This document shows, in pieces, positions 18,653 through 44,836 of a stretch of DNA of 64,000 bases (its first letter is position 1; each line of letters starts with the position of its first letter). The position numbers were made by a program, and so were the translations under genes. The DNA is from Candidatus Zixiibacteriota bacterium (GTDB taxonomy: Bacteria > Zixibacteria > MSB-5A5 > GN15 > FEB-12). Location: contig JAHOYZ010000039.1 in NCBI GenBank assembly GCA_019038695.1, positions 1 to 64,000 on the forward strand, in the 5' to 3' direction. The notes under the pieces are model-generated. The model worked only from the letters and a program-made list of their open reading frames with translations. It was not told the DNA's origin and searched no databases.

Positions 18653-18655
18653 ATT

Positions 18656-20412: not shown

Positions 20413-20429
20413 CGTCTATCTCATCTCCC

Positions 20430-22507: not shown

Positions 22508-22510
22508 AGC

Positions 22511-23428: not shown

Positions 23429-23439
23429 AGTAAGTTCAG

Positions 23440-24315: not shown

Positions 24316-24327
24316 AATTGATTGTGC

Positions 24328-25317: not shown

Positions 25318-25339
25318 CAATCCTCCGGATATATGTACT

Positions 25340-27195: not shown

Positions 27196-28662
27196 TTATA
27201 TCTCTGAGGAAATCTCAATCGAGAGACGGGCTTGACCGATGGGCGTGTCCGGATTCAATCCCAACGATATTCTAACACCTCGGGTAGCACTTTGCACGGC
27301 TATGCCAATTCCAAACCCCCAGTGAAAGTCTTCCTGGGTGCGCACACCCTCGTCAGCATCGGCAACCCGATTGTTGAGGTAAGCTCCGTCGGCGAAGCCG
27401 AAGATGTAACCACTCTCGAAACGAAGACGCGGTTCGACCGTGATGATCGCCGCACGAACGACGGCAAACTGTTCATTGCGGTATCCGCGAAGCGATCCGG
27501 GACCTCCAACCAGAACCAACTCAGATACTGGTGGTAAGTCTTCCTCGGTCTCAAGCCCGCGATACCTTAACCCGATGTGGCCAGTCAACGATCCCACCAG
27601 CGGTTGGTATGTGCTTATACTTATAGCGATACGAGTTTCGTCAAAAGCCACCCCTGTGGCGGCAGAATCCTGTTTGTGGCGTCGGTACGAATAGAGCAGG
27701 GACCAATTCAGATTTACACCACGAGAGGGATTGAAAATGTTATCCAGCGTTCGCCATTGGATTTGATGCTCAACTGCATAGACCGAGAAGGAAGATCGAT
27801 CTCCGACCGGTTCTACACTGCGATAGGCGAGGGACAGAGCTGTCGATGTTTCCCGCCATCGGTCGAGACGATATGAGCTACGAAGCAAGAACTCGTAGAA
27901 TAAATCACGGTAGTCACGAGTGGCTACCTGAAACTCAGCACTCCCCGGACCAAGCCAGAAAACCGGCTGTGTGTATCCCAAGCGCAGCTCGTTATGATTG
28001 CGTTCGCGTCGCTGCGACAACAACGATGCACAACGACCTTGGCCAAAAAGGTTGTTGAATCGAAGGTCCAGATGCCAGACCAAACCGGTTGGATCATCGG
28101 GCACATAACCACCTCCAGCCGATATTTCGACAGGCCTGACTTCCTTAAAGTAACACTCTATATCAGCAACCGTATATCCCTCTAATGCACGAATATGTAT
28201 CGGTTCCATAAAATGTAGATAGCCTATCCGCGAAGCGGCCTCAGCCACTGATAAGAGACGCCGCTCAATCAGCAAGCTGTCGGCAACCAACGGGAAATAA
28301 CGGTGAAGTGTTGCCGGGGCAGTGCGACTGAGACCGGAGAATAACAGACGGCCAATCCGTACTTTAGGCCCAGCTTCAACCTTTGCGTTTATTGAAATTC
28401 GATCGCGATTTTTCGCTATGCGAATCGGATGAATGACGGCATAATAGTAGCCGCTGTCCTGCCAGGGAGTCAGTAGATTGTCGCACAGTCGTGTCAATGC
28501 TGGTTCGGAAAAGGGGATTCCCGGCGTCAAAGTATCATCGATACTACCCGAGAGAATCAGGGTGTCGATGATTGCATTATCCTGATCACGATCATTCCCA
28601 CTAACATGTGCTGTGCATATCAGCGAACTCACCAGAATAATTACATGTACTACTTGTTTCAT
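27196..28662 (-). CDS. Omp85/BamA-superfamily outer-membrane protein
   Basis: This 488-residue protein has a signal peptide, one or two POTRA-like segments (about 30-175) and a C-terminal 16-strand surface-antigen barrel (about 185-488). The conserved lid-lock motif appears as GGPGSLRGYRNEQF (about residue 385). It is shorter than BamA, with fewer POTRA domains, so it is closer to accessory Omp85 or TpsB-like proteins. Position two bases from the large barrel gene suggests it inserts or exports products of this locus. Confidence 0.85.
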   Translation of the reverse strand: MKQVVHVIILVSSLICTAHVSGNDRDQDNAIIDTLILSGSIDDTLTPGIPFSEPALTRLCDNLLTPWQDSGYYYAVIHPIRIAKNRDRISINAKVEAGPKVRIGRLLFSGLSRTAPATLHRYFPLVADSLLIERRLLSVAEAASRIGYLHFMEPIHIRALEGYTVADIECYFKEVRPVEISAGGGYVPDDPTGLVWHLDLRFNNLFGQGRCASLLSQRRERNHNELRLGYTQPVFWLGPGSAEFQVATRDYRDLFYEFLLRSSYRLDRWRETSTALSLAYRSVEPVGDRSSFSVYAVEHQIQWRTLDNIFNPSRGVNLNWSLLYSYRRHKQDSAATGVAFDETRIAISISTYQPLVGSLTGHIGLRYRGLETEEDLPPVSELVLVGGPGSLRGYRNEQFAVVRAAIITVEPRLRFESGYIFGFADGAYLNNRVADADEGVRTQEDFHWGFGIGIAVQSATRGVRISLGLNPDTPIGQARLSIEISSEI

Positions 28663-28663
28663 A

Positions 28664-31600
28664 TCAGAATCCCGCCACCATTTCGCCCTGCCCTATGATA
28701 CGGGCTGCCCTCGTATCGGCATGACGGCCGGAAATTGACAGATTAATCCGTAGCCTCGACTTGCCCCCATAGCGCACCCCCACCGACCAAACTGCTCCCT
28801 GGCGACCGGGACGATTGTCGGTCAGCAGAAATGACGGCATACCGGACAGGGCCGAAAGAGTCTGTCGATACAACTCCAGTGAGATACGGAGTTCACCATT
28901 GCCGACAAATCCAAGACGTGAAGATGTCAACAGCCGGTAAAGATCAGAACGTTCGCCGACAGCCGATGTTGCTCGGCGATAGGCAGTGCCCAACGTCAAT
29001 TCGTGAGCGCCCATGAGCTGTCGGATAGTGAGATCAATCGAGTATCCGTCCACTTCACCAGCCCCACTAAAATAGATATCTCGATCTGAGTCAAACAGTC
29101 CTACAGTCTCTTCGAAACGAGTACTACCGACAACCTGTCGGAAAGACAACGAACCGCGTCGATCGCGCCGTTCTCGTGGCGTATCCGCCACGCGACGTAT
29201 CTCCTGATCCTCACTCACCGATAGACTGACAGCATAGATATTCTTGATGGGAAACAGACGCAGATCGGTGCTATGATGACGATTGTAATAAAGGTACGGC
29301 TGGCTCTGGTCGGACACGAATGGCAACACCCACCAGACTGACCGCTGACCCGACGCCAGTAATTCCTCCCTGACACGTGAATCTAGTCGCAGGAGTACAA
29401 TCGACCAGTCCCGGGACAAATGGAACGTCTTCTCGCCGCGAGACACTTGGGCCTGAGTAGACAATATCTCCTCGATCCTTACGAAATCACCATTAGGATC
29501 GGGGCGATACTCTTCCTCTTCAAAGATGTACTGCCCCTCCCCCGATTCTACCCGTAGATAGTTTATTCCGCGAGCATGTCGTGATTCCTCGGATAGCAGA
29601 TATGAGCTGCCCACTCTAAATCGTCCGGGTGAATCATTGTAGTCAAGGTTGAGTCTCCCCAGGTAGCTTTCGTCATGGGACTGAGGAGAACGTCGCCATT
29701 GATGGAACAGTGTCGTATTATAGCTCAGTTTGCCGATCCGGCGACGTGACTCAACACTAACGTGAGTGCGACGCAATAGCTCATTCCAGTCACCTCTTAA
29801 GGTGTCCTCAATATATCGCTGAACTTCCAGACGCTCGGTCGGTCGGTCAAGAGAAAAACTCAGGCGATCATACCGTGTCCCCCGATCTTCTCCCTTGTAA
29901 TCATGTCTCCGATCGTCATGCTCATAGTCAGTGGAGAACGTCCACCCAAGAGGAACTTTCCACGCCACAACGCAGCCATACGAGTCTGCCCTGCCAGTAA
30001 TCGGGCGTGTGTCAACGGCACTCGTATCAGCGGTACTTGTACCAACGGCACTAGTGCCATCGATACGGATCATACGCCATTTCAGACGGCCGGTAACATT
30101 GCGATGAGCCATAATTTCAACATCGCCACCACCACGCCATGATGACGGACCGTGCTGATAATCCAACCGCGCCAGATTCGGAGAAACGGCTACATGCGAC
30201 GATGGCGAGAGCCGTCCTTCTATCGATTGATAGCTCTCGTCTGAGGTCATAACAAAACTGTCGGGAAGAAAGAAATCCCTGGCAAAATCGGCCTTATCCA
30301 GCCGGTGCGGGGACCTATATCGCGGTTCTCTGAACCTGGTTCTGGCAGTGACATATTGGGTGTTGTCAGGAGGACCCCAGTCTTTCCGAAGCGAGGCTAC
30401 ATACAACGCCCCATTATTGTCATCATCATCGAGGTCGGAGAAAAGATTCTTATCGGATTGACTTTGCCGCCATTCGGCTGTAAGAGTTCCCAGAGCACCG
30501 CTTCTGATTCCGAGGCTAGTCTGAAAATACTCGTTTCGCTCAGGCAATGGGAGAGTTCTGACTGGCAGATAGTCACCTTTTCCCTCACCCGCATACTGGT
30601 AAATCGCGTTGCCTACATAGCGATACTCGCCCTTGCTAACTCCGACAAAACTGAAGGTCACTCTGTAATCCCCGGTATCCCCCACGATATGTTGGTAGAT
30701 TGTGTCAGGTAGACTATCAGGTAGAATGATGTAGTTGCCCATACTATCGGGAAACACCCCTGATTCACGGGCCGCATCGGAATTGTCTCCCACCGCTTCT
30801 AATAGCGCCCGACCGGCCTCCGACAATTCCCCCTGGAGTGGCTGGTGACTGTCATCACCATCATGTGTCCAGGCCATGTCGAAGATAACGGTGGAATCTC
30901 CAAGAGCTACCCCTCCCCCGGCAGTGAACAACTCCCCACGGTAATCCGAGGACTGCGGTTCATAATCAATCTCGATACGGCTGCGGCTGTCGATGGAGTG
31001 ATTGACGCCAAACGTTATCTGACCAGCCGGGTAGTCAACAATGTAATCCTTGTGTGTACCTCTTTCCAGAAGCTGACCATCGAGCCACACCTGTTCCGAA
31101 CCCGGGACAACCGGCACCGCGGCCGGGTCGATCTGATAGGGACCTTGAAGCTGATCCAGACTGTGTAGCCGTATGGTCTGGAAACGTCCTCGCGGTCGAG
31201 CCGCCGACATGTAGGCACTCTGATGAAAGTCGCGATAAGCAAAGGTCACTCCCGAAAGACGCCGGTCACGTCTGGTAAACGGCATTTGAGTCATCGGATC
31301 AAAACGATTGCTCACCATGAGATCACCAACTCGACCGGTGAACCGTCGTGAGTTTACCTCCAGATGGATTCGGTCGAGTTCCTTCAGAGTACTGTTGGCT
31401 GTTCCGTAGATGGGGTCATAACCTCGATCCGAGACCGCCCCGGTTACATCTACTCCCGAAGCCAACTGACCGGAGATAGTGAGATCAAGACCCTGGCTGA
31501 AGCTTGAACCTCCTCTCGAACGAGTCATAAATCGAAACGACTTGGTTCCTGACAGACTCAGATCCGAACCACGCGATGTTAAGTTTCTTTTACCTGAATG

Positions 31601-31984
31601 AACCACTCCCCTCGTTTCAGGGAGCGCGTATTGTCCTATCGGTGGGAGTGACCGTCCATAGGTAGTGGACAACCACGAAGGCAAAAGGGTATAGCACAGA
31701 CGAAGCGTGTCGCCATGTGCGACCGTGATACGCGACAGATCAAATCGCATATATTTGTTGTCATAATTGTATTCTGTCCCTCGCCTGAGTAAACTATCGC
31801 CAACATAGAGCGAGTCGGACAAATCGAATATGCCTCTGGGAGCAACCGAGTAAACTGCCGGCAGACTGTCCCCGGCGATTTCGACACAGGTGCCAGAGAC
31901 GGCGGCATAAGGCGCAAGAAGGATGCAGAAAAATATGATGGTGATCAAGAACGACGGAGATTTCCATGGATAGTGATCGCCCAT
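28664..31984 (-). CDS. Large outer-membrane barrel-like protein of unknown function
   Basis: This 1106-residue protein has an N-terminal signal peptide and a mostly beta-rich sequence with alternating polar and aromatic strands, as in large barrels. The motif PGSEQVWLDGQLLERG followed by DYIVDYPAGQITF (about 295-330) resembles repeats I associate with SprA-type and related surface proteins of FCB bacteria. A weaker copy lies at about 45-75 (VGDSLLRRGTEYNYD). True SprA proteins are about twice this length, so a translocon role is only a hypothesis. It lies between the NHL lipoprotein and Omp85 genes with almost no spacing. Confidence 0.55.
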   Translation of the reverse strand: MGDHYPWKSPSFLITIIFFCILLAPYAAVSGTCVEIAGDSLPAVYSVAPRGIFDLSDSLYVGDSLLRRGTEYNYDNKYMRFDLSRITVAHGDTLRLCYTLLPSWLSTTYGRSLPPIGQYALPETRGVVHSGKRNLTSRGSDLSLSGTKSFRFMTRSRGGSSFSQGLDLTISGQLASGVDVTGAVSDRGYDPIYGTANSTLKELDRIHLEVNSRRFTGRVGDLMVSNRFDPMTQMPFTRRDRRLSGVTFAYRDFHQSAYMSAARPRGRFQTIRLHSLDQLQGPYQIDPAAVPVVPGSEQVWLDGQLLERGTHKDYIVDYPAGQITFGVNHSIDSRSRIEIDYEPQSSDYRGELFTAGGGVALGDSTVIFDMAWTHDGDDSHQPLQGELSEAGRALLEAVGDNSDAARESGVFPDSMGNYIILPDSLPDTIYQHIVGDTGDYRVTFSFVGVSKGEYRYVGNAIYQYAGEGKGDYLPVRTLPLPERNEYFQTSLGIRSGALGTLTAEWRQSQSDKNLFSDLDDDDNNGALYVASLRKDWGPPDNTQYVTARTRFREPRYRSPHRLDKADFARDFFLPDSFVMTSDESYQSIEGRLSPSSHVAVSPNLARLDYQHGPSSWRGGGDVEIMAHRNVTGRLKWRMIRIDGTSAVGTSTADTSAVDTRPITGRADSYGCVVAWKVPLGWTFSTDYEHDDRRHDYKGEDRGTRYDRLSFSLDRPTERLEVQRYIEDTLRGDWNELLRRTHVSVESRRRIGKLSYNTTLFHQWRRSPQSHDESYLGRLNLDYNDSPGRFRVGSSYLLSEESRHARGINYLRVESGEGQYIFEEEEYRPDPNGDFVRIEEILSTQAQVSRGEKTFHLSRDWSIVLLRLDSRVREELLASGQRSVWWVLPFVSDQSQPYLYYNRHHSTDLRLFPIKNIYAVSLSVSEDQEIRRVADTPRERRDRRGSLSFRQVVGSTRFEETVGLFDSDRDIYFSGAGEVDGYSIDLTIRQLMGAHELTLGTAYRRATSAVGERSDLYRLLTSSRLGFVGNGELRISLELYRQTLSALSGMPSFLLTDNRPGRQGAVWSVGVRYGGKSRLRINLSISGRHADTRAARIIGQGEMVAGF

Positions 31985-31994
31985 GGCTCCTCGC

Positions 31995-32954
31995 CTATCG
32001 TTCGGGACTGATTATGCGGCAAACCAACAGACGATCATTGCCGGTGTCGGAGACAACGATACGACCGTCGGGGAGAATGGCAACGTCCGATGGTTCCCTC
32101 AGGTCAATTGAGGTCCCGGACATCTGAGGTCCAACCATAAGCTTACGCTCTCCCTGATGCGAGAATAAGAACAATCGACCAACAACTCCGTCTACGACCC
32201 ATAATCCATGTCCGTCGATTGTCACTGCAATAGGATAATCAAGCTCAGGGGATGATATACTTCGCACAAAGTTACCGTAGTCGTCATAGACAACCAGACG
32301 GCTGTTGCCTGCATCGCACACCAGGAATCCACCTTGCCGGCCAACCACAATCTTCTCGGGCGAGTGAACCTGGTCGCCGCTGTATCCGAAATCACCCACG
32401 AAACGGTCGAATTGTCCCACGTGATTGAAAACGGCAATGCGGTTCTGATCCCGATCGGCAATCCATAACTCGCCGAACTCCGTGAGTGCCGCACCCGAGG
32501 GATACCCGAACTTGAGAAGGTCTTCACTATCATAGAAGGCAATATCACCAGCATACGTAAGGCGATTATCAAAACGCGCCAGACGTCGATTGCCCTCATC
32601 AGTAACAAGCAGGTTGAGTTCATTATCAATGACTGCAAAAGTCGGACCATCCAGAAGACCAGCTGCTGATCCATGGCCTCCAATCTCCCTGACAGGAGTT
32701 AAATCGGAATGAAACTGGATTATCCGATGGTTGCCGGCATCAACACAGTAGAGCGACCCACGACCGTCAATCGCAAGACCGAATGGACGACTCAGTCTGG
32801 CTCCAAGAACAACACCGGCAATTTCCTGCTCCACTACAAGAGCAACAGGAACCACCGCCGCCTGTTCGTCAATAACCTGATCTCTCTTGGCTCCTCCACA
32901 TGATAGCAAACCAAGAGCCACTATTCCGACCAGTATTCCACTAAGGCGTCCCAC
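31995..32954 (-). CDS. NHL-repeat beta-propeller lipoprotein
   Basis: This 319-residue lipoprotein has a lipobox GLLSC with the cysteine at residue 19 when read from the GTG at 32954. That start is preferred because a longer frame to 33020 would overlap the upstream gene and spoil the signal peptide. The body consists of about six NHL blades (e.g. RPFGLAIDGRGSLYCVDAGNHRI), forming a six-bladed propeller. NHL domains bind proteins or glycans. It is probably an envelope scaffold for the locus. Confidence 0.8.
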   Translation of the reverse strand: MGRLSGILVGIVALGLLSCGGAKRDQVIDEQAAVVPVALVVEQEIAGVVLGARLSRPFGLAIDGRGSLYCVDAGNHRIIQFHSDLTPVREIGGHGSAAGLLDGPTFAVIDNELNLLVTDEGNRRLARFDNRLTYAGDIAFYDSEDLLKFGYPSGAALTEFGELWIADRDQNRIAVFNHVGQFDRFVGDFGYSGDQVHSPEKIVVGRQGGFLVCDAGNSRLVVYDDYGNFVRSISSPELDYPIAVTIDGHGLWVVDGVVGRLFLFSHQGERKLMVGPQMSGTSIDLREPSDVAILPDGRIVVSDTGNDRLLVCRIISPER

Positions 32955-32964
32955 ACCTATTCGC

Positions 32965-33765
32965 TCAAAAACCCGGGTACACAGTAATCGCGACCTGGTT
33001 GCGCTCAGCCAGAGGATCAACGCTCAACTGCACCGGTTTGCCAGCTACTGACAGGAAGAATCCGTCATCAGTCAGTCCCCCCCCACGGGCATCGCGAACA
33101 GCATCGACGACTGCCAGAACACGGTCAAAGAGACCAACCAACATGACCCACCTGGCTCGTCGATAGGCAGTTCGGCTGGATTCACGGAGCTCACGGAAAA
33201 CAGCCCTGTCCTCGGTTGACTGCCAAGACCAGTGATGACTTGCATCATCGGGAAAGTACTCCGAGCCAGTCTCCAGCAGACGTCCGATATCATTGTACCG
33301 ATCAATATCGCGGTATTTCTCCAGCCAGACAAAGAAATCATCATCCTTACCATCCAGGTTTGCGCCTGCTTTTGCTTCGGCATGACGTATCATGTCATCC
33401 TTCTTCCATGCGCCGTAGGTACGCAGGGAAAAATAGGAAACCCAGGTCACTATCTCCGCCGCAAAGAAAACGCGAGCCTTGGTCTTCCGACCGTTGTAAT
33501 ATTGCCCCCACCCCGGAACCAGCAACGAATACAGTCCGGCTCTGAGCTTCGATTGACCACCAAACTTCTGGCCGGACAAAGTAGCCTTGGCCTCTACATT
33601 GCTGGAGTCGAAGGCATTGAGTGCGACTGCTTTCAGTCCGAAACCCGAACCGGCAATGGTCTGTGACATCTGGGTTTGAATAGGCGTCTTGCTCAATTCA
33701 AGCCCGTGTCCGACGACCACCATTACAATCAGCAGGGAAACAGTCAGGGACAATATGCGCTTCAT
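32965..33765 (-). CDS. DUF5683-like membrane protein, copy 2
   Basis: This 266-residue protein has a signal peptide and the characteristic VPGWGQYYNGRKTKARVFF segment (about 85-103) with adjacent hydrophobic stretches. It is a paralogue of the next gene upstream. DUF5683 proteins are common in Bacteroidetes and other FCB bacteria, and their function is not known. It lies 10 bases after its paralogue. Confidence 0.72.
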   Translation of the reverse strand: MKRILSLTVSLLIVMVVVGHGLELSKTPIQTQMSQTIAGSGFGLKAVALNAFDSSNVEAKATLSGQKFGGQSKLRAGLYSLLVPGWGQYYNGRKTKARVFFAAEIVTWVSYFSLRTYGAWKKDDMIRHAEAKAGANLDGKDDDFFVWLEKYRDIDRYNDIGRLLETGSEYFPDDASHHWSWQSTEDRAVFRELRESSRTAYRRARWVMLVGLFDRVLAVVDAVRDARGGGLTDDGFFLSVAGKPVQLSVDPLAERNQVAITVYPGF

Positions 33766-33775
33766 TTGCTCTACC

Positions 33776-34681
33776 TTAGAATTTATAAGTGAACGTCACA
33801 AAAGGCGTATCCCGTCTGGCATGATACGACTTTAGCGACGCCTTTATCTTGACCCGAGCCAATGTCGATCCACTCTGGGTTTCGATCCGGCTATTGTGCT
33901 TTTTGGCTGAAATCAAACCCTCAAATGCACTTACCAGACGATTGGCTATGGAGACAAAGATCATGCGTCGGGCTCGCTTGTAACGACCGTCAGTATCCTT
34001 CCGCATCTGCTCATATTCCAGTCGGTGGGATGTGGACGGAATGTTCTCGTCTGTATTAACATGCGGCGGCGGGGCGATTTCACTGTAGTCATACAGATAC
34101 TGCCCCTCGAGATTAGCATCATCCCATCCCCAGGCAAACTGATCGTACTTACCGGTCATCTCGTAGTATTGCTGAGTGCGAGTATCCGGCAGATGATGCG
34201 ACAGTTCGCGGGCGGTGAGGGAATCGTCATCGTCCTTCCCATAGGCCCACAGAAGATAGGTTTCGTAATCCTCCTGATTCCAGTGATCACGATTGAACTG
34301 TTCGAACTCGGCGGTCATATCATCGGCCTGTCCATGCCACTTGCTGTAAAAAATCCATGAGGTTACTTCAGCTCCAAGAAATCCGACTGCCTTGAACCGA
34401 CTGCCATTGTATAACTGACCCATTCCTGGAACCGCGAGCGAGAGTAAAAATGCCTTGGCTGGCGACTTGCTTCGGAAATTATTCGGGCGAGGTATCTGGT
34501 CTGATGATGGATCGACGACGAGCGGCTCGTCAGTGTTTAGGGCCAGGGCAACGTCATACCGAATCTTGTGTCCTTCTAGAGCGAAAGCGGATGTAGTCGA
34601 TTGTACGGCGGCTGCGTTTCCGGCAACCATCAATAGGCCGACAGTTATAGCGAAGACACAAATGGTGTTGGATCGGATCAT
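33776..34681 (-). CDS. DUF5683-like membrane protein, copy 1
   Basis: This 301-residue protein has a signal peptide (cleavage near NAAAVQ) and the segment VPGMGQLYNGSRFKAVGFL (about 83-101), followed by TSWIFYSKW. It shares the layout of the neighbouring copy but carries a longer, aromatic and acidic central region. The two may form a heteromeric unit; that is inferred only from adjacency. Confidence 0.72.
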   Translation of the reverse strand: MIRSNTICVFAITVGLLMVAGNAAAVQSTTSAFALEGHKIRYDVALALNTDEPLVVDPSSDQIPRPNNFRSKSPAKAFLLSLAVPGMGQLYNGSRFKAVGFLGAEVTSWIFYSKWHGQADDMTAEFEQFNRDHWNQEDYETYLLWAYGKDDDDSLTARELSHHLPDTRTQQYYEMTGKYDQFAWGWDDANLEGQYLYDYSEIAPPPHVNTDENIPSTSHRLEYEQMRKDTDGRYKRARRMIFVSIANRLVSAFEGLISAKKHNSRIETQSGSTLARVKIKASLKSYHARRDTPFVTFTYKF

Positions 34682-34701
34682 TATCGCTGGTTCCTCCTGA
34701 A

Positions 34702-37700
34702 CTATCGAATTATCGCAATATCTGTGAAGGCTGTTTGTTCCGAACCACTAAAATCAATCTTGATAAAGCAACGATATACACCCGGGCTGACATCGTCACA
34801 ATTCCAGACGACTTCATTATCCAGGCCACCGGAAGTTGGTCCGCTTAGGGCGTCAATTTCTATCCCTGACAAATCGTAGATGGTAAGCCTTACTCGATTG
34901 GCTTCCTTTCCCAGGAAGTATCGAATGGTCGTGTGCCCGTCAACGACCGGGTTAGGATAGTTGTAGAATCGGTCGTCATGCCAATTTTGACTAAACTGTA
35001 CGGGCGAGATCAATCTGGTCGAATCAAAGGTCAGCGAGTTGGTCGGATCGGCACCACCCATAGGCCAGTAGTTACGGGTCGAATCGGCGTCTACCTGCCA
35101 CATGTAGAACCATCCATCACCACCAAGGTACCCCAACCATCCGCCGGTCGAATCATTAAGCGTGATCGGCGACCCGGCTGCGAGTTCCCCGGCCGAAAGT
35201 GGGAATCCGTAGGCTAGATTCTGACCATAGGCATATATATTTCCCGCAGCGGTAGCTGCTACAATCTCGGACCGTCCACCACGCTCAAGGTCGGATACTA
35301 TCGGCGGCGCAGACACAAAATTGTCGGCAAGAAGTCCGTCGTCAATCTCAATAGGGAAACCGGTCTTAGCCGTGAGTTCGTGATTGAAAGCATATATAGC
35401 GTTGGGACCACCACAGATGATGTCGGGATAGCCATCATCATCAATATCCGCTGCGATCGGATTTACGGTCACCGTTGCTCCCGTTTCTTGATAGCGTAGC
35501 AAAGACAGATCCGGCGGGGATTGGTTCTGGTCAACACTAATCAGTACCATCTCCCCATTGGCTGACACGCCTACAATCTCGATGACTCCATCACGATCGA
35601 CATCGACGGCAATAGGACCATAGCGAAAATGGCCGTTCAGTGAAATCGAATCAACGTGATCATCATCCATAACATAAAAGGTAGTGACATCCTCATCCCC
35701 GGCCATCAGAATCATCGCTTCTCCGGCTCGGCAGATACCGTGATATTCGTCATTAACAAATGTCCCAATCAGCACCAAAGATCCGGAAACCAGTCCGGTC
35801 TTATGATAAACATTTCCAAGGCTGGTCAGTCCATATAAATCGTGGCCAAAGGTAATGGCAATAGGAGTGCCTGACGTGATGAATTCGGATCGTAAGTCCG
35901 CCTGCCCATCGTGGTCATCATCAGTCGCTTTATAAATAAGTATGCGCCCGTCGGACTCACCATAGGGAATACCAACCGCGACGAGTTTTTCGGTAAGCGC
36001 CTTCTCGCCAAAGTCACCGGTCACCGGACCGGACCAGATTACCTGGTTGGGAGCCAACTCGACAAACAGCGGCACCGGATGAGGACGCCCGGTATGTATA
36101 CTGGCCAGGGCTGTGTCATAGAAAGTGTCTGCCTCGGGTGTGTAGAACTTCCTGATATAGCGCTCCCCCTCGGTCGTGAAGACTGAAATGAGGTTCTGCG
36201 AAGCGACAATCAACTCATCAGTCCCATCACGATTGAGGTCATCGGCTATTACGTTAAGGTGATAGGCCGGTGAGCCAGCGCGTATAGGGAAACCGGGGGC
36301 AAGCCTGTCGGTCTCCAAATCAAACCGCATGATGTTGTCGTCAATGTAGATGTTATTAAGACCTACCGTATCGATATCACGACTAATGCCGGAGACATAG
36401 ATATGGGTGTTATTGCCTGAATTATCAATTGCCGGTGGATTGGTATTAGGTGTAAAAGAAGTGTTGCGGTCATCGCGATACATATCCTCAGCGCGTCCGA
36501 AACCACTGCGGTAGTACCCTCCGAGATGAACCTGGCCATCACCCTCGATCAAACGAATGAATCGACGCTCCGAGTCCCACTGGAGGTCGTTGTCGTCAAA
36601 ATTGTTCATTCCGTCACCGTCATAATCCAGACCGGCAACAGCCTCGTCAACATGGTAAATAAGCATCCCAGAGCCGGGCATCAGCTGGTCATACTCCCGC
36701 GAGTATGATCCGTACCCGACAAGATTGCCTTCATTGTCTCGAATAATCTCCACAGGACCCTGGATAACACCGGTGGCCGAGTCCGCCCGAACTCCGGTTT
36801 CCTTGCCATCGATTTCAATAACCCGGTTCTCCAATAAGTAGTATTCCTTTTCGGTGATCGGAATGCGGGCAATCTTGATGCTGTCGGAGATCATTGCAGC
36901 CGCTGCCAGCGTTATGTCGGTACCCTGACGGAAGTCATGGACATCGACAAAGCCGAGATGCGCCCGCGACCAGGCTGTTGGGAATAACGGCATGGCTCCA
37001 AACACACGACCCGCATCGAACCCAAAATCGATCCCGGTTCCAAAGCCATTGTTATCCATGAGGGAAAAATCACCAAGTTGGGTCATAAAGTTGTTCGTAC
37101 TGTAGATGTCCACCAATCCCAATTGATGACCAAATTCGTGGGCCAGAACCGCGTTGAGAGCAGTGGCACGATTATCCTGGCAGGCCGTCTCCGGCATCAT
37201 CAGCGCAGTTCGCACGAACGTAGCACCGTTGTCAACCCACACCGAGTCACCGAAACTGATGAACCCTGTAAACAGGTCATTGCACGTTTCCGGAAAGCCT
37301 ATATCATTCTGCCGGTCGGAACCGGCATGAAAGAGAAAGATCGACTCGTACCGAGCGAAATCTATCGCGGGTGTTTCGGCATCGGCTGTTTCAATGCAAT
37401 CTATAAAGTACAGCTCGAGTCCGTAGACCACAGAGTCATAGCCACACTTCCCGTAGTGGCTCATAGGGTGTGGTAAAGTGTAGGCAGCATCGCTCTCTGG
37501 TGGGAATATCTCCCAGTGAAGATCGATCTTGCCTTCAGAAACTGTCTCCCAATAGCGACTGAGCGCCTGCATATGAGCATCGAAGTAGGCTGCGTTGTGC
37601 GGTGGGGGATCTATCCAATGACCAATGGTATCATAGTAGGCGGCTGAATCCTCAGGCGTAGCCAGGGGATTGCTTAAGTCGATTACACCTCGACCGGTAG

Positions 37701-38013
37701 TATTGGGATCGTCGGTGTCTTCCCGCTGAAAATCAAACCGCAGCACCAGGACTTCGATAGTCCTGTCGGCCATGGCATCAAGCGCCTGGCTGGGCAGGGA
37801 CCAGGATCTGTCTCGTTTTACCCCGAGGTCGATCGGATCCTTTACCTCTGGCGTGAGACAGCGTTGACGTACATGATTATCGCCGGGGTCAGTGGTGACG
37901 GCCTGACGACTCAAAATAGGCAAAGCTTTGTCACCGGCGGCGACGTTGGTGGTGGCGACCAGCAAGGCCGCCACCACTACTATCTGGCGAAGATCAAACA
38001 ATCCTATGTTCAA
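34702..38013 (-). CDS. Secreted M6-type metalloprotease with C-terminal sorting-like domain
   Basis: This 1103-residue secreted protein has a signal peptide, then a metalloprotease domain with zinc site HEFGHQLGLVD (about 291-301), typical of the M6/immune-inhibitor-A-like family. FG-GAP/VCBS-like repeats rich in D-x-D-x-D loops follow (about 560-980). The C-terminal 80 residues (YPNPVVDGHTTIRYFL, then SPGVYRC) match FlgD-like or type IX sorting domains. It lies directly after the PorU and PorV-like genes, so it is the natural candidate cargo of that apparatus. Confidence 0.85.
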   Translation of the reverse strand: MNIGLFDLRQIVVVAALLVATTNVAAGDKALPILSRQAVTTDPGDNHVRQRCLTPEVKDPIDLGVKRDRSWSLPSQALDAMADRTIEVLVLRFDFQREDTDDPNTTGRGVIDLSNPLATPEDSAAYYDTIGHWIDPPPHNAAYFDAHMQALSRYWETVSEGKIDLHWEIFPPESDAAYTLPHPMSHYGKCGYDSVVYGLELYFIDCIETADAETPAIDFARYESIFLFHAGSDRQNDIGFPETCNDLFTGFISFGDSVWVDNGATFVRTALMMPETACQDNRATALNAVLAHEFGHQLGLVDIYSTNNFMTQLGDFSLMDNNGFGTGIDFGFDAGRVFGAMPLFPTAWSRAHLGFVDVHDFRQGTDITLAAAAMISDSIKIARIPITEKEYYLLENRVIEIDGKETGVRADSATGVIQGPVEIIRDNEGNLVGYGSYSREYDQLMPGSGMLIYHVDEAVAGLDYDGDGMNNFDDNDLQWDSERRFIRLIEGDGQVHLGGYYRSGFGRAEDMYRDDRNTSFTPNTNPPAIDNSGNNTHIYVSGISRDIDTVGLNNIYIDDNIMRFDLETDRLAPGFPIRAGSPAYHLNVIADDLNRDGTDELIVASQNLISVFTTEGERYIRKFYTPEADTFYDTALASIHTGRPHPVPLFVELAPNQVIWSGPVTGDFGEKALTEKLVAVGIPYGESDGRILIYKATDDDHDGQADLRSEFITSGTPIAITFGHDLYGLTSLGNVYHKTGLVSGSLVLIGTFVNDEYHGICRAGEAMILMAGDEDVTTFYVMDDDHVDSISLNGHFRYGPIAVDVDRDGVIEIVGVSANGEMVLISVDQNQSPPDLSLLRYQETGATVTVNPIAADIDDDGYPDIICGGPNAIYAFNHELTAKTGFPIEIDDGLLADNFVSAPPIVSDLERGGRSEIVAATAAGNIYAYGQNLAYGFPLSAGELAAGSPITLNDSTGGWLGYLGGDGWFYMWQVDADSTRNYWPMGGADPTNSLTFDSTRLISPVQFSQNWHDDRFYNYPNPVVDGHTTIRYFLGKEANRVRLTIYDLSGIEIDALSGPTSGGLDNEVVWNCDDVSPGVYRCFIKIDFSGSEQTAFTDIAIIR

Positions 38014-38040
38014 ACTCAGACTCCCATGTCTTTGGACAAA

Positions 38041-41013
38041 TTATGGTCTCACAGAAAGTGACATACGCAAGGTGTTCGCCAATATTGACTCGTTATTGCT
38101 GGGAATATAAGAGAAATCAAATCCGAAGCGGTCCATCAGCGTAAGACCGACACCAAGAGTGAGAATCTTAATTTTCCCGTCTTCATCATGCTTGTATCCA
38201 GCTCTGAGAGCAATCAGGTCAGCATAAACAAACTCTGCTCCAGTGTTAATGATTGTCTCTTTGATCTCTTCATTAAAACTGCCAATGGAAACTAGTTGTT
38301 TATTCAGTTCGCCGGTGATCAACAGACGGTTGTAGTCCGATCGCAGGAGCTTGTATGCGAATCCAATTGCGAGGTTACGCGGCAATGGATCACTCTGTGC
38401 ATCCTGACTGTACTGGATCTCCGGTCCGATGTTGGTGATGCTCATGCCAAGATTCAACCGTGGTGTCATGTGGTAGAGCAATCCCAGATCGAGCGCGACT
38501 CCGGTAGCGGTGCCATCACCAAAACCTCCCGATTCCTCTCCTGAAAGCTCGCCCACTTCAGATAGGTGGGAATACAACACTTTGGCTGAGATACCACCTT
38601 TGAGCGATTGGGTCAGAGAAGCGCCGTAGGATAGCCCGACGGCAAACTCGTACGCCTCCCCCATACCAGCATCGTGACCCTGCTCGTCGGTATACGGCAT
38701 GGACCCATATGTCAGGTATGTAAAATTGAAACCGACTGTACCCCAACCACGTAGATGATGTACACCTGAAAAGAATTCATAATAAATGTCGTCGGCAAGA
38801 TCAAGTTCGGGCAACCAGTTAACATGCATCAGGGAATACTCCGAACGTGCATTGGCTTTGGCAACAACTCTATCTTCGCTGGCCATCCAGAGTTCGTCAC
38901 CAATCATTATCACGTTGATGGCATTCGACCGGTCAAGCCCCATCCGATTCACGCTCATCACTCGCTTTTTCTCTTTGTCAAAGAATCTGAGACCATTGGC
39001 AGTCGCAAGGTAAACATACTTGCCACTCCCCGTGATCTTGTTGATTCGGGATGCCAGAGCGTTGCGATATACTTTGATTGTATCACCTATTTGGAGAGTA
39101 CCGTCGTCCAAATCATTTATCGCGATGAGAGCTTCGCGGTATAGGTTCGCATCATCGGGATCTATTTCTTCACCCCACCTTAGACCGATCAAGTTACTAT
39201 CGAGTGTTTCTCCCTCGGCAACAACGTGTTCACCATAACCGAGAATGCGCGACGAATCACCAGAGAGTAACACTAATCCGTAATCTGTACCCAGCCATGT
39301 TCTGTCACCAGCAGAGTAAATGCTGGTCGCATCCCCTCTAATCCGGGCCACATAGGGAACCAAAATAACATCGCCAGCTCTCAGAGCATCCATATCAACC
39401 GGTCGGGCAGGCATCGCCGGAACCTCGGAGGTAGTGACTGAATCCATCTGCTCAAGGGTTTCATCTATCACCAGAGCAGTATCTTCAACAGAAGTCTCCG
39501 GCAACACATCAACATCCTCAGATGCTTCACCAACACTGTCTGACGGAACAACCTCAGTTACTTCACCAGCACTATCTGACGGAACAACCTCAGTTACTTC
39601 ACCAGCACTATCTGACGGAACAACCTCAATTACTCCACCAACACTGTCTGACAGAACAACCTCGGTGGCTTCAGTGACACTATCGGACTGTACAACCTCC
39701 GTAGCTTTTGACGGATCAACCAACACATCTTCCAGACCGGCTTCCGGTGATGGCTCGTCTGGCCGCTGGTTAATGTCAAGCATCTTTGCGATGAATTCAC
39801 TTTTTTCAGCTTCCAGGCCATAGATTGCGAACTTGTCGGCAATTGACTCTGGGGTGTCATCCAACACCACCGTATAGGCAAAGCTGTTTGACCAGGTATC
39901 GCCGTTAAATGAGTATAAGTCGTTATCGATCACGACCCATTCATGTTGGCTGCTGAATCCGGGACCAACAGCACTAACCCGACCGCCTGGTAAACTCTCA
40001 GAACCAGTGACAGGTATCACCTTGGCTCCAGCAAAAGAGACCAGACCCTTGCTAGTGCCAACGTATATCAAACCTGGTGAGGTATACAGCGCAGTAATCT
40101 CCGAAGAAGGCAGACCATCGAGTTCGGTCATAGTCCGCCAGGTTTTTCCATTGTAGAAATACAAACCGTTTGTCGTTCCTACCAGAAGGGACTTCTCGCC
40201 TGAAACAATACAGGTGAGTTCGCCCTCAAACAGAGCTGCATAGGGAATCTTCAGTTCTTCGGGAATGAATCTTGATCTGGCATTTTCAATCGCTATGTTT
40301 ATGCGATCACACTCAACCTCAGACAAGACCGAATCTTTCATGCCGTCATTGTAATTCTTACGGGCAGTCTCGAACCTATCCCAGTTGATACGACACTCGT
40401 CGTAGGCCGCCGTCAGGGTATCAAAATCATCAGTAATTGCTGAGAGGCGGGGATAATCCTCGGGAATGCTTGCAATAATGTTATCCCTAAGCTGCAGTAG
40501 CTCCTGTTTGCTGTAAGGGCTGTTGGCCTCAGCCACGACAGCCACTCGGGCTGCGAGCCGCTCTTCGTCCTTTTCGTTGAAATAACGAGTGACCTTTTGA
40601 GATACAGTCTGATCGGTACGGGTATTGAATATTTCCTCTGTGTACCAATTGCGATAATCATACCGTACAAGTCCTTGAGTGGATATGGCCCATATTTCAT
40701 AGGATTGGTAGTCCGAGCCAGTCCCTTTCCTCAGGGCCACCATGCTTCGCAACGGCCGAAGATGATTGGGAACTCGGGAGTCCTTCCATGAATCCGAAAG
40801 CGGGTAGGCTCCGAGACCAGCCGGGTTCCAGTATGTTGTGGTGGCATCATCAGCAACCGCCACGAATGACTCACCCATTGCAGCCGCTCGGGCTCCAGGT
40901 GCAATGCGAAGGAAAAGAGCTGAAGCGCTCGAGACCTGTGCCTGGCCGCTGGTGGCCAGAGCGGTGACGATCAAACATGTGAGGACAAGAGTAACAACGT
41001 GTCTCGTGAGCAT
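38041..41013 (-). CDS. porV: PorV-like outer-membrane protein with a giant internal insertion
   Basis: This 990-residue protein begins (signal peptide 1-26, then 27-75) and ends (about 730-990) like PorV/PorQ barrels: LRIAPGARAAAMGESFVAV with YWNPAGL, and later NWLPELDLADDIYYEFF. Between them lie about 650 extra residues: propeller-like strands (GLYFYNGKTW, VGTSKGLVSF), a helical part, a tandem repeat (about 436-496) and two LysM-like motifs. PorV in type IX systems shuttles cargo to PorU. The gene follows porU by 19 bases, as in Bacteroidetes. Typical PorV proteins have about 400 residues. Confidence 0.75.
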   Translation of the reverse strand: MLTRHVVTLVLTCLIVTALATSGQAQVSSASALFLRIAPGARAAAMGESFVAVADDATTTYWNPAGLGAYPLSDSWKDSRVPNHLRPLRSMVALRKGTGSDYQSYEIWAISTQGLVRYDYRNWYTEEIFNTRTDQTVSQKVTRYFNEKDEERLAARVAVVAEANSPYSKQELLQLRDNIIASIPEDYPRLSAITDDFDTLTAAYDECRINWDRFETARKNYNDGMKDSVLSEVECDRINIAIENARSRFIPEELKIPYAALFEGELTCIVSGEKSLLVGTTNGLYFYNGKTWRTMTELDGLPSSEITALYTSPGLIYVGTSKGLVSFAGAKVIPVTGSESLPGGRVSAVGPGFSSQHEWVVIDNDLYSFNGDTWSNSFAYTVVLDDTPESIADKFAIYGLEAEKSEFIAKMLDINQRPDEPSPEAGLEDVLVDPSKATEVVQSDSVTEATEVVLSDSVGGVIEVVPSDSAGEVTEVVPSDSAGEVTEVVPSDSVGEASEDVDVLPETSVEDTALVIDETLEQMDSVTTSEVPAMPARPVDMDALRAGDVILVPYVARIRGDATSIYSAGDRTWLGTDYGLVLLSGDSSRILGYGEHVVAEGETLDSNLIGLRWGEEIDPDDANLYREALIAINDLDDGTLQIGDTIKVYRNALASRINKITGSGKYVYLATANGLRFFDKEKKRVMSVNRMGLDRSNAINVIMIGDELWMASEDRVVAKANARSEYSLMHVNWLPELDLADDIYYEFFSGVHHLRGWGTVGFNFTYLTYGSMPYTDEQGHDAGMGEAYEFAVGLSYGASLTQSLKGGISAKVLYSHLSEVGELSGEESGGFGDGTATGVALDLGLLYHMTPRLNLGMSITNIGPEIQYSQDAQSDPLPRNLAIGFAYKLLRSDYNRLLITGELNKQLVSIGSFNEEIKETIINTGAEFVYADLIALRAGYKHDEDGKIKILTLGVGLTLMDRFGFDFSYIPSNNESILANTLRMSLSVRP
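39526..39705 (-). repeat. Five tandem 36-bp units within the PorV-like gene
   Basis: Five units of 36 bp start at 39526, 39562, 39598, 39634 and 39670. The middle units are nearly identical and the outer ones diverged. Each encodes twelve residues of the type VVPSDSAGEVTE, an acidic, proline and serine-rich spacer. The length keeps the frame, so copy number can vary without breaking the protein. Confidence 0.9.
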
Positions 41014-41032
41014 AAACAGTCTCCTAATACTA

Positions 41033-44000
41033 TCAGTTCACAACTACTATTTTTCCAAGTGCTTCGACTACTTCTCCCCCATTCGAAGGGACAGCAATCG
41101 CTTTATAGATATAGACACCGGTTGCGACCCGGTCGCCGGCGGCATCAAGTCCATACCATATTATATCGTCAAAATAGCCCGCTTCTACGGGGTACCGTTC
41201 AAAGGTTTTGATCTTTCGACCTGAGAGCGTAAATATCGCCAGAGACAGCCGTTTCATCGGTTGTGTCAAACGGCAGGAAAATCGGGTCATGTCATTCATG
41301 GGATTGGGAAAATTGAGAAGGTCGGCAATAGCCGCTTCTGAGGAGACCATAATCTCGGCCACAAACTCGGTACTCGACGAGTTGTTGGCATTGTCCCAGG
41401 CCTTGACCTTGAAAGTGTGTCGACCGGGCTCCAGTTCGTCAAGCGGATACTCCAGACTGCCAGTGGAGAAATCACCCTGATCGTGACTAAAACTGCTGGT
41501 CAAATCGATCTGGTTCTCCGATTGTCCATCGATGGTAAGAGTTATTCCGTGCCCCAGCGCCCCAGACAAATTCACGCCACTCGGATCGGTCAGGACAATT
41601 TCCAGTCGATCACTGCGAAGAACCACGTCACCGCTTACAAACTGATTGCTGCCCTCCAGACCGTATTCGATCTCCGGTCCGGTAGAATCTGTCGAGGCAG
41701 CCGCGTTGTCTGCGATGCGCAACGAATCAGCCAGACCGATAGCATCGGTGTTGCCCAATTGAGCATAGAGCACAATGCGGCCGCCATGACCACCATAGCC
41801 AACATCAAGCGGCGTTACGAACTCAAAATCGAAATCTCCAGCGGTTATTGCAGTCGTACCTCGGTACAGAGTAGGACCGGATACAAAGTAATCAATATTA
41901 CGGTATGTCTTGGGACGATCCGAGTCGTAGATATTGATCGACAATTGGCCATCGGCCATTAATGTTTGCCCGTCGTGATTTATAACCCTTCCTGCTACCC
42001 GGGCGCGGTCAAGCGCGATTAAACTATCGGGACAGGTGGTGATTTCAATGTCCAGACGAGGTTGCCCCAGACTCAGACACGGATCCCCGAAAAATACATA
42101 AATGCGGTCATTTGTAACCGGTATCGGTGAATCGGGATTGGCATATTGGCGACGTAACTTTGCCAGATACATAGCCTCGGCTATGGTCAACGAATCATCT
42201 TCGAAAAGAGCGCTGAACACAGTCTGATTAAATACGGCATTGTCACTCGAATAGACAATGCGAGCCGCGCTGATCACTCCAATAGCCCCCCCTGCGGGGT
42301 GGACCAACAAATCTTCGGCCATCGCATCATTAAGTGGTTCATCGAAAAAACCGATGGCACATGAGGCCACAAATACCAAGGGCAAACGATCATAATTGCT
42401 CAGCTGGGGTAAATCCTCCAGACGGGTAAAAACATGCTCATGAGCCCAGAGTTCGGGATTGCCATGACCAACGTAGTTGATAATTAATGAACCATTATTG
42501 AATGCCGCCACGATATCAGGGTTGGCGGTTGGTTTGTACCGTCCCACAAAGGGGTAGTCCCATATATATATCTTATTACGCAGAAAACTCCGAGGCGTGT
42601 ATCCCCGCGACAGCTGTTCAGTCTGGTTGGCATGGAAAGTCTCATCGTGGCCGGTATCGGTGTGTTCGTCATCGGCAACAAACGTTATCCGATTACGCCA
42701 GAGACCAAGGTTGGACGGTGACTCATAGTGTTTGCTCTTGGCCACGATAGTATTGATTTCTTCCACCGTTCGTACCGGCCAACGAGCTACCAACATGTCA
42801 AAACCACGATCTCCGGTCATATAAGTGGTATCACTATCAAGCAGCCCATAGGTGCCAAAATACACATAGGCATCGTCGGAAGTAGACTCCTCCGACGGCA
42901 ATATCCACGACGGCACACGGTTGACAAATCCGGTACCAAAGTGATCGAGGTAGTCGTAGGTGCCATCACCAACAAGCAATACAGATGATGGCGCTGGAGT
43001 TGGATAGCTTTCGTAGGCATACTTGAGAAAATCCCGGATAGCCGCTGGGTCAAACAATCCCCAGGAGAAGTTGTCATAAATATCTTCTACCGCCACCACC
43101 GAGATTGATCGTTCACCGTTCTGCCGATATTCGACATACTCATCAAGAGCACCAATTAGATCTCTGGAAGATATGATAATGAGATCCACCTGCCTATCAG
43201 TCGCATACAGATCAGTCGGCCAGGATCGTTCAATGGACAGCGGTGCAAGCGGACCCGAACGACGAGCCAGGTAGAACCGATTACTCAGTAAGGGATCGAT
43301 CATTGCTGAAAATGAAACACTGCCGCCAGAATGCTCGACTCCTGTCAGCAAAGTGGGGTGGTGTGGATCGGCCAGATTGAGAATCATCAACGGAGCATTA
43401 AAGTTATCAACTACATCCATTCGCGCCCGCCCCGCAAATGGCTCCAATGTGATATCCAGGACGTTTCCTTCGGGCACCAGCAAACTTATGTATTCGATAT
43501 TGAGATAGTTGAAAAACGGATCCGCCTCCGTGCTACCATGTAGATCAATGCGAATCTCGTTCAACCCATCATGCAAAGATGAAACCCCAAACCGACAATT
43601 GAACTGATTACACGTATCAACGGCTGGAACGCCATTCACCCACAAGTCCATATAACCGGGATTGTAAGTTCGACCATCGGTCTTGATCCGTGCCCGCGCA
43701 CCCTCGACAGCACCCGGAGTCGTCACGAACAACTCCAGCAAGGTGGAGTCCGTCCAATACCACGTATAATAATCAGACAGTCGACCGTTCTTTAGCTTTC
43801 GAAGTATGTTGTCTTGCTCACTATGCCGATAGCGTCGGAAAGTAGTGACTAATGTATCAGTCGGCAACTCGGGTGAGGCTCCGACCTCTGACATGCGTAC
43901 CGGAGTGTCGTCGGATATATTCAACCAGTAGACGTTGGCATTTTCATAGACATTGTTGACGAAACGTGGCACATAAGCAACCTGGTAGAGCCAGCGATCC

Positions 44001-44836
44001 ACTGCTTCGCCGAAGAAGAAAACAGTGTCATCGTGACCAAATAGACCGTCACCACCGTCCGCCACAATGATCGAAATTTCTTCAAGCGTCGGACGATCTG
44101 TATTATTGTTGATGGGCAGAATCAATCCACTACCATTTAGAAGATGAATGTGGTCGCTCGACAGGTTGCCCAGGTTCACCCCGGCCTCCTCCAGCTGTGT
44201 TCCGGTAAGGCCATAAAGACCAGTCTGGTTGACCTCAATCCGGTACCATTCTTCCGCCCCTGAAAAGGGTCCGACACTCGCTGTAGGTTTGGCCATCACA
44301 CGAACTGGAACCTGCCACTGACGGAACTGCTGATAATTTGCTACCGCCGCTTTGAAAATGCGGTCAAACAAAGGATCGTTTGCAGGCGCTCCTACAATCG
44401 AGCGACCGCCATCGAAAGAAAGCTGTACTTCCACCTCGTGGAACATCATGGAGCCGGTCACAGGATAAATATTTATCGATACTAACCTGCGGTCTCGGAT
44501 TGTGCGCGGAGGTAAAACCTCAACCAAAGGATGAGAAGTTGAAGACATCTCCACAGCCATTTTCGTGGCATCCATGCTCCCGAGCGATCTGCCCTCTGCA
44601 AATCTCAGGTGAGGCTGAGCTAAATGTGGAAGACCAACTTGTACTGAGTAGAAGTGCGATTGCAGAGAATCGGTTTCCGCATGAGAAAGGAGGTCGTCGT
44701 CATCTAAAGTAAGAACAAAATGGAACAGTGTGTCGGAAGAGGATACTACCTGGAGGTCGGCTCCATTGACCGACAACACGCCCAATAGAATTACAAGGCA
44801 AAGCAAGATGAATGATTTACACAGTCTACACGTCAT
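41033..44836 (-). CDS. porU: PorU-like C25 (gingipain-family) peptidase, putative sortase
   Basis: This 1267-residue protein has a signal peptide, a beta-rich N-terminal region, a C25 peptidase domain (about 555-900) and a C-terminal FlgD/sorting-like domain (about 1175-1267: FPNPMNDMTRFSC, ATGVYIY). The catalytic pair is intact: His in YVGHGNPELW (about 790) and Cys in FVASCAIGFF (about 824), 34 residues apart as in gingipains. PorU removes C-terminal signals in type IX secretion and attaches cargo to lipopolysaccharide. Adjacency to a PorV-like gene supports this over a plain gingipain. It is first in a nine-gene apparent operon. Confidence 0.82.
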   Translation of the reverse strand: MTCRLCKSFILLCLVILLGVLSVNGADLQVVSSSDTLFHFVLTLDDDDLLSHAETDSLQSHFYSVQVGLPHLAQPHLRFAEGRSLGSMDATKMAVEMSSTSHPLVEVLPPRTIRDRRLVSINIYPVTGSMMFHEVEVQLSFDGGRSIVGAPANDPLFDRIFKAAVANYQQFRQWQVPVRVMAKPTASVGPFSGAEEWYRIEVNQTGLYGLTGTQLEEAGVNLGNLSSDHIHLLNGSGLILPINNNTDRPTLEEISIIVADGGDGLFGHDDTVFFFGEAVDRWLYQVAYVPRFVNNVYENANVYWLNISDDTPVRMSEVGASPELPTDTLVTTFRRYRHSEQDNILRKLKNGRLSDYYTWYWTDSTLLELFVTTPGAVEGARARIKTDGRTYNPGYMDLWVNGVPAVDTCNQFNCRFGVSSLHDGLNEIRIDLHGSTEADPFFNYLNIEYISLLVPEGNVLDITLEPFAGRARMDVVDNFNAPLMILNLADPHHPTLLTGVEHSGGSVSFSAMIDPLLSNRFYLARRSGPLAPLSIERSWPTDLYATDRQVDLIIISSRDLIGALDEYVEYRQNGERSISVVAVEDIYDNFSWGLFDPAAIRDFLKYAYESYPTPAPSSVLLVGDGTYDYLDHFGTGFVNRVPSWILPSEESTSDDAYVYFGTYGLLDSDTTYMTGDRGFDMLVARWPVRTVEEINTIVAKSKHYESPSNLGLWRNRITFVADDEHTDTGHDETFHANQTEQLSRGYTPRSFLRNKIYIWDYPFVGRYKPTANPDIVAAFNNGSLIINYVGHGNPELWAHEHVFTRLEDLPQLSNYDRLPLVFVASCAIGFFDEPLNDAMAEDLLVHPAGGAIGVISAARIVYSSDNAVFNQTVFSALFEDDSLTIAEAMYLAKLRRQYANPDSPIPVTNDRIYVFFGDPCLSLGQPRLDIEITTCPDSLIALDRARVAGRVINHDGQTLMADGQLSINIYDSDRPKTYRNIDYFVSGPTLYRGTTAITAGDFDFEFVTPLDVGYGGHGGRIVLYAQLGNTDAIGLADSLRIADNAAASTDSTGPEIEYGLEGSNQFVSGDVVLRSDRLEIVLTDPSGVNLSGALGHGITLTIDGQSENQIDLTSSFSHDQGDFSTGSLEYPLDELEPGRHTFKVKAWDNANNSSSTEFVAEIMVSSEAAIADLLNFPNPMNDMTRFSCRLTQPMKRLSLAIFTLSGRKIKTFERYPVEAGYFDDIIWYGLDAAGDRVATGVYIYKAIAVPSNGGEVVEALGKIVVVN

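Follow-up and report, generated by a model that had tools for sequence, protein, structure and literature searches.

The closest described systems are the type IX secretion systems (T9SSs) of Bacteroidota such as Porphyromonas gingivalis and Flavobacterium johnsoniae. In Flavobacterium, substrates bind the loops of PorV within SprA, the barrel of which has 36 strands, an input of energy is believed to draw PorV off, and disruption of the GldLM motor traps the substrate (PMC10994853). The motor has so far been treated as essential, and a role of the proton-motive force in type IX transport has been stated as unestablished (PMC10994853). A T9SS has been called possible in Chlorobiota, Ignavibacteriota, Rhodothermota, Gemmatimonadetes, Cloacimonadota and Fibrobacterota, a list in which Zixibacteria are not named (PMC11285876), and sorting domains were reported across genomes of the Fibrobacterota-Chlorobiota-Bacteroidota (FCB) group such as Kryptonia (PMC4737851). 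Our literature search found no paper that connects Zixibacteria with a T9SS. Here, we examine a locus of Candidatus Zixiibacteriota bacterium on a stretch of 64,000 nucleotides (the window; assembly GCA_019038695.1, contig JAHOYZ010000039.1, positions 1 to 64,000), in which the original prediction had seen a compact type IX-like secretion and attachment locus. The locus is likely to be the operon for carrier and sortase of a T9SS variant that spans the phylum, built on a core of SprA, a PorV fusion and PorU, with a different periplasmic coupling.

Judged by its protein families, the system is a true T9SS, since the genome (3.28 Mb, 96% complete) has a full-length SprA and the TIGR04183 type A sorting domain at 47 places above cut-off, with a PorU that exceeds its equivalog cut-off. 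Domain calls were made with Pfam and NCBIfam profiles. PorU reached 650.8 bits with the NCBIfam equivalog NF033707 (cut-off 420), and its His (NYVGHG) and Cys (ASCAIG) are kept in 8 of 8 homologues, as is the C-terminal domain (CTD). The carrier scored 243 bits with the PorV/PorQ family NF033709 (cut-off 90), and Pfam PorV was found in all 28 members of its family. The translocon, a SprA of 2036 residues, scored 514 bits (cut-off 200) and is similar to the F. johnsoniae SprA structure at 3.8e-39; within the order, SprA matches were obtained in 40 of 41 genomes, 39 of them above cut-off. We also read 30 sorting tails, and nearly all have [KR]KMxLxK or a similar motif at their end. Both the proposed type IX identity, in another FCB phylum, and the PorU-type, rather than plain gingipain-like, nature of the C25 protease are borne out, and sorting domains are not confined to the locus. 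What did not hold is the idea of a self-contained minimal system, as SprA is encoded on a different contig (C29). This contig is separate and of 16 kb in the host genome, while in five relatives (G004, G008, G010, G013 and G017) SprA and the gene for the 1106-residue barrel protein of the locus lie on one contig, about 27–35 kb apart.

The carrier itself had been read as a PorV-like barrel. The PorV identity was upheld, but the protein is not a simple barrel: an N-terminal hatch is followed by a propeller of ~650 residues, which contains helical insertions and a disordered linker, and then by a 14-strand barrel. The protein stays under the PorV equivalog cut-off (179 versus 250 bits), and its profile matches F. 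johnsoniae PorV (6h3i_F) at 1.3e-39. The best fold matches of the barrel are the T9SS PorV structures 8gl6_F and 6h3i_F (E 3.8e-16 for PorV, 8.6e-8 for TodX). A FadL/TodX-type transporter was considered and rejected, as T9SS PorV comes first in both the fold and the sequence ranking. The hatch segment is strongly conserved in the alignment, and the AlphaFold2 (AF2) model of the propeller has a predicted local distance difference test (pLDDT) score mostly about 90, except in the linker (residues 419–535). Homologues of the fusion were found in 132 of 132 genomes of the phylum, most frames being about 800–1060 aa long. The Reg_prop repeat was found in 16 of the 28 members; moreover, two LysM-like motifs could be aligned and are conserved in most of them. 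At least eight stand-alone PorV/PorQ-family proteins also exceed the cut-off in the same genome (e.g., G000:C7:223949, C26:119115, C25:29321, C54:11938 and C22:80735) and are possible alternative carriers.

In the modelled barrel, the even loops have 3–4 residues and the odd loops 4–18. Short turns of such barrels usually face the periplasm; the even loops would then be periplasmic and strand 1 would start in the periplasm, which places the propeller, inserted just ahead of strand 1, in the periplasm by prediction. The LysM-like motifs agree with this placement. The propeller groups with Reg_prop sensor propellers, and its best match is BT4663 (4a2l), which PorZ, a member of the PorU-PorV-PorQ-PorZ complex, is known to resemble (PMC8545088). 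This match, together with weak matches of PorZ models, would suit a surface equivalent of PorZ, the PorV fusion forming a one-chain attachment complex that presents the glycan to PorU. We regard such a role as unlikely, given the predicted periplasmic position ahead of strand 1, the LysM-like motifs, the about seven blades that make up one propeller where PorZ has two, and the lack of a CTD. Moreover, the PorZ models remained below cut-off (20.6 versus 27 bits and 17 versus 260 bits), and we retain PorZ for the insert only as a rival reading. The sub-cut-off matches of the PorQ and PorZ models fall on the PorV fusion itself.

The absence of PorK, PorL, PorM and PorN from the locus, noted from the start, was confirmed, and sequence models did not find these proteins elsewhere in the genome. 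Profile models of GldL, GldM and GldN gave no credible match in the 41 genomes of the order, nor in the host's own; GldK gave none in the host genome and none above cut-off in the 41, and the first domain of GldM (Pfam) was above cut-off in 0 of 132 genomes of the phylum. Sub-cut-off GldK matches occurred in 12 of the 41 genomes and likewise in four control genomes, and we take them as generic FGE-sulfatase-domain proteins. Given that the SprA, PorU and PorV-family models all exceed their cut-offs in the same genome, the gap is not simply a general failure of the models.

A standard T9SS could nevertheless be present, with PorL-PorM and PorK-PorN diverged past recognition and working exactly as in Bacteroidota. 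GldM and GldL sequences are less conserved than those of SprA, and the models used come from Bacteroidota. Moreover, the motor is essential in Flavobacterium (PMC10994853), so its total absence would be surprising. We nonetheless hold this to be improbable: the SprA, PorU and PorV-family models score far above cut-off across the same phylum gap, while the separate models of K, L, M and N yield nothing credible. The idea of motor genes adjoining SprA was also discarded, as its neighbours are housekeeping genes (recG, DUF1844, murB, an M28 peptidase, selA and selB), and inspection of this neighbourhood revealed neither por genes nor a K-L-M-N-like block. Concerning SprA in other genomes, the Parabacteroides distasonis record NZ_OY725768.1 (L171), labelled as a plasmid, has sprA, ruvA, dxs and genes of cytochrome bd; with sprA and core metabolism encoded on it, it is probably a chromosomal fragment.

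Four MotA/ExbB-family loci are present in the genome, namely two flagellar MotAB loci, one TolQRA-like and one ExbB-ExbD-ExbD-TonB-TonB locus with a tetratricopeptide repeat (TPR) protein. They were rejected as a por motor, none being GldL-like or tied to the por operon, and remain candidate energy sources. A run of genes at L178:5163-10874 brings together a TPR protein, a 330-aa membrane protein, ExbB, two ExbD and TonB, with more TonB-like genes just downstream, and is possibly an alternative trans-envelope motor.

In the phylum-wide variant that we favour, sorting-domain proteins would leave the periplasm through the canonical SprA, whose gene lies outside this locus, and would bind the loops of PorV, PorU trimming and possibly attaching them. 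The propeller with its two LysM-like motifs, between hatch and barrel, would hang in the periplasm and may act as a handle by which PorV is held to peptidoglycan or drawn off SprA, in place of the missing hub. The force may have a different trans-envelope source, an ExbBD-TonB and a TolQRA-like set both being present, or there may be none; neither of these two sets is linked to the T9SS by any evidence found. A bolder version, which we put forward tentatively and hold a little short of an even chance, is that the T9SS of Zixibacteria does without the PorLM/PorKN rotary machine, PorV being pulled or anchored from below, through its periplasmic propeller and peptidoglycan-binding handle, by another energy source, and that the rotary motor is an add-on of Bacteroidota.

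Several points weigh against the proposed variant. The models that failed to find PorK-L-M-N were built from Bacteroidota and used without a positive control outside that phylum, and a strongly diverged motor could escape them. The genome-wide search for missing parts covered PorK, PorL, PorM and PorN, and not PorW/SprE, PorT, PorE, Plug, PorZ or PorQ. The Pfam LysM model (E ≤ 0.01) matches only 11 of the 28 members of the PorV fusion family, the protein of the window lying just below the cut-off (20.7 versus 20.9), and the propeller family also contains PorZ, a cell-surface protein. Finally, the case for type IX secretion in this phylum of uncultured bacteria is a genomic one.

The PorU and PorV genes belong to a closely packed block (Table 1). 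Open reading frame checks confirmed the predicted arrangement of eight minus-strand genes, followed after 38 bases by a ninth, UbiA; counted from PorU, the gaps are 19, 27, 20 and 10 bases, then the NHL boundary, then 10, 1 and 38 bases. Only the start of the NHL gene needed correction, as its longest frame opens at a TTG at 33020 and overlaps the upstream gene by 56 bases; the real start is probably some codons downstream. The order PorU-PorV-M6-DUF5683-DUF5683-NHL-1106 aa-Omp85-UbiA, followed by BatD-like, MoxR, DUF58 and VWA genes, is repeated across the family of the host and its order. The core block also occurs in the more remote families f9, f16 and f19 of the class, where protein identity is low, below 30% for some members. 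Given that the order recurs in several families at such identities, the arrangement is not due to chance, and its conservation extends across the class.

Table 1. Features of the T9SS block of the window (positions of the whole stretch)
Feature	Position	Strand	Basis
PorU, 1267-aa T9SS sortase of the C25 family; divergent sorting-like domain at its C-terminus	41033..44836	-	NF033707; C25 4e-84
PorV fusion, 990 aa	38041..41013	-	Pfam PorV 5e-19; NF033709
PorV N-terminal hatch segment, residues about 25-74	40792..40941	-	N-termini of PorV-family models; conserved in alignment
Inserted propeller, about seven blades, residues about 75-724, helical insertions, two LysM-like motifs; predicted periplasmic	38842..40791	-	
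14-strand PorV barrel, residues 725-990	38044..38841	-	Fold matches, strand count
M6-like metalloprotease, 1103 aa, FG-GAP repeats, secreted	34702..38013	-	NF052323; M6 motif
C-terminal sorting-like domain of the M6 protein, YPNP motif	34705..34968	-	TIGR04183 below cut-off; CTD profile of the genome itself
DUF5683 protein 1	33776..34681	-	DUF5683 8e-9; conserved position
DUF5683 protein 2	32965..33765	-	DUF5683 4e-7; conserved position
NHL-repeat lipoprotein, lipobox LLSC	31995..33020	-	NHL 8e-27; N-termini compared
1106-residue large outer-membrane barrel, predicted about 37 long strands	28664..31984	-	AF2 model
SprA-like segment of the 1106-aa protein, residues 290-375	30860..31117	-	hhalign to SprA alignment
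Omp85-family barrel, partner of the 1106-aa protein	27196..28662	-	Omp85 4e-14; BamA model 67 bits versus cut-off 297
UbiA-family prenyltransferase, closes the conserved block	26312..27157	-	UbiA 1e-33; adjoins block in nearly all loci examined

The 1106-aa protein had been described as barrel-like with SprA-reminiscent motifs. Its AF2 model (pLDDT 79) is indeed a large barrel, and the sequence likeness to SprA comes down to one segment of ~85 residues; the system's SprA is a different protein. The SprA equivalog TIGR04189 gave 26 bits over 60 residues only (cut-off 200), hhalign against the SprA alignment returned a single match (83 columns, probability 94, E 1.5e-7), and the true SprA of 2036 residues lies elsewhere. 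The same short segment is borne by ~270-aa proteins of relatives (G009:C14:20935-21111, G029:C12:251762-251914 and G010:C1:58901-59059).

Matches to the 1106-aa protein were obtained in 119 of 132 genomes of the phylum, part of them cross-matches to SprA. Eleven genomes that are at least 90% complete lack the gene (no match, or only the SprA cross-match) and, by our reading of the match tables, none of these has the specific Omp85 partner. We inspected five such loci (G027, G026, G030, G033 and G053): both genes are gone and the flanking genes kept, the NHL gene being gone as well in three of the five. PorV is retained in all 11 genomes, and SprA in the nine that were covered by the order-level search. 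This joint loss, with SprA and PorV retained, suggests that the 1106-aa protein and Omp85 form one unit, a separable accessory of the outer membrane. Alternatively, the 1106-aa protein could be an additional, smaller translocon of the SprA type that serves special cargo and is assembled by the Omp85 protein. The predicted strand number, close to that of SprA, the shared segment, the position within the PorU operon and SprA as top fold match of the model speak for this, but the superposition is loose (template-modelling score 0.25, root-mean-square deviation 30) with TonB receptors scoring close behind, homology does not extend beyond the one segment, and many lineages that retain SprA and PorV have lost the pair. 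We consider a second translocon distinctly doubtful, and keep to the accessory unit.

The M6-type protease was originally proposed as the candidate cargo of the locus, with a sorting-like C-terminal domain. Protease and domain are both confirmed. The M6 assignment is weak in Pfam and clear in NCBIfam (M6-like family 6e-76, M6 domain 3e-18), and the protein resembles NF052323, a T9SS-dependent M6-like family, in its M6 region (256 bits, short of the 600-bit cut-off); that family is named "inactivated", whereas the metzincin motif HEFGH..G.VD is intact here in 13 of 13 homologues. The tail scored 18.3 bits with TIGR04183, under the cut-off of 23. Like that of PorU, it matches the cargo CTD profile of the genome, yet both are without the terminal KKMxLxK. 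In P. gingivalis, PorU retains an uncleaved CTD. The same is true of P. gingivalis PorZ (PMC8545088), and by analogy the M6 protein probably stays in the surface complex after its export, which would make it the third protein with a retained CTD besides PorU and PorZ. The intact active site and the divergent tail, which is without the end motif of the cargo of this genome, make a resident likelier than a cargo. That M6 is an ordinary T9SS cargo which merely sits in the operon, as its YPNP-type domain would allow, seems to us somewhat unlikely, given also that the M6 gene is present in every locus examined that extends past PorV, including loci that lost other genes.

Beyond the block, a Bat-type operon follows at 16090-26218 of the window (minus strand), with two BatD-like genes, a MoxR ATPase, DUF58, VWA and TPR proteins, and the two are adjacent throughout the order. 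At 4222-7692 (minus strand), BshC (Pfam) stands beside glycosyltransferase and LmbE-like deacetylase genes, the latter two read from their translations; these are likely bacillithiol biosynthesis genes.

The presence of a T9SS in Zixibacteria is a moderate extension of its known range, adding this phylum, with genomic detail, to those of the FCB group in which the system was only called possible. The new part is the phylum-wide PorV fusion combined with the lack of a recognisable motor or ring. A phylum with SprA, PorV, PorU and dozens of cargo proteins but no recognisable motor or ring would show that the translocation core is separable from the energy chain, and what could stand in for the latter, the PorV fusion being a concrete candidate. 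If the motor-less reading is true, type IX secretion is not defined by the rotary motor. Compared with F. johnsoniae PorV (6h3i_F and 8gl6_F), its best match by sequence and by fold, the fusion shares the 14-strand barrel and the hatch motif, and differs by the extra ~650 residues between them. As a whole, the system has in common with the T9SS of P. gingivalis and F. johnsoniae the PorU sortase, a PorV-type carrier, SprA and dozens of proteins with a type A CTD; it differs from them by having no recognisable PorK, PorL, PorM or PorN, by the propeller with LysM-like motifs in PorV, and by an operon that adds an M6 protease with an intact active site, two DUF5683 proteins, an NHL lipoprotein, the 1106-aa barrel and Omp85.

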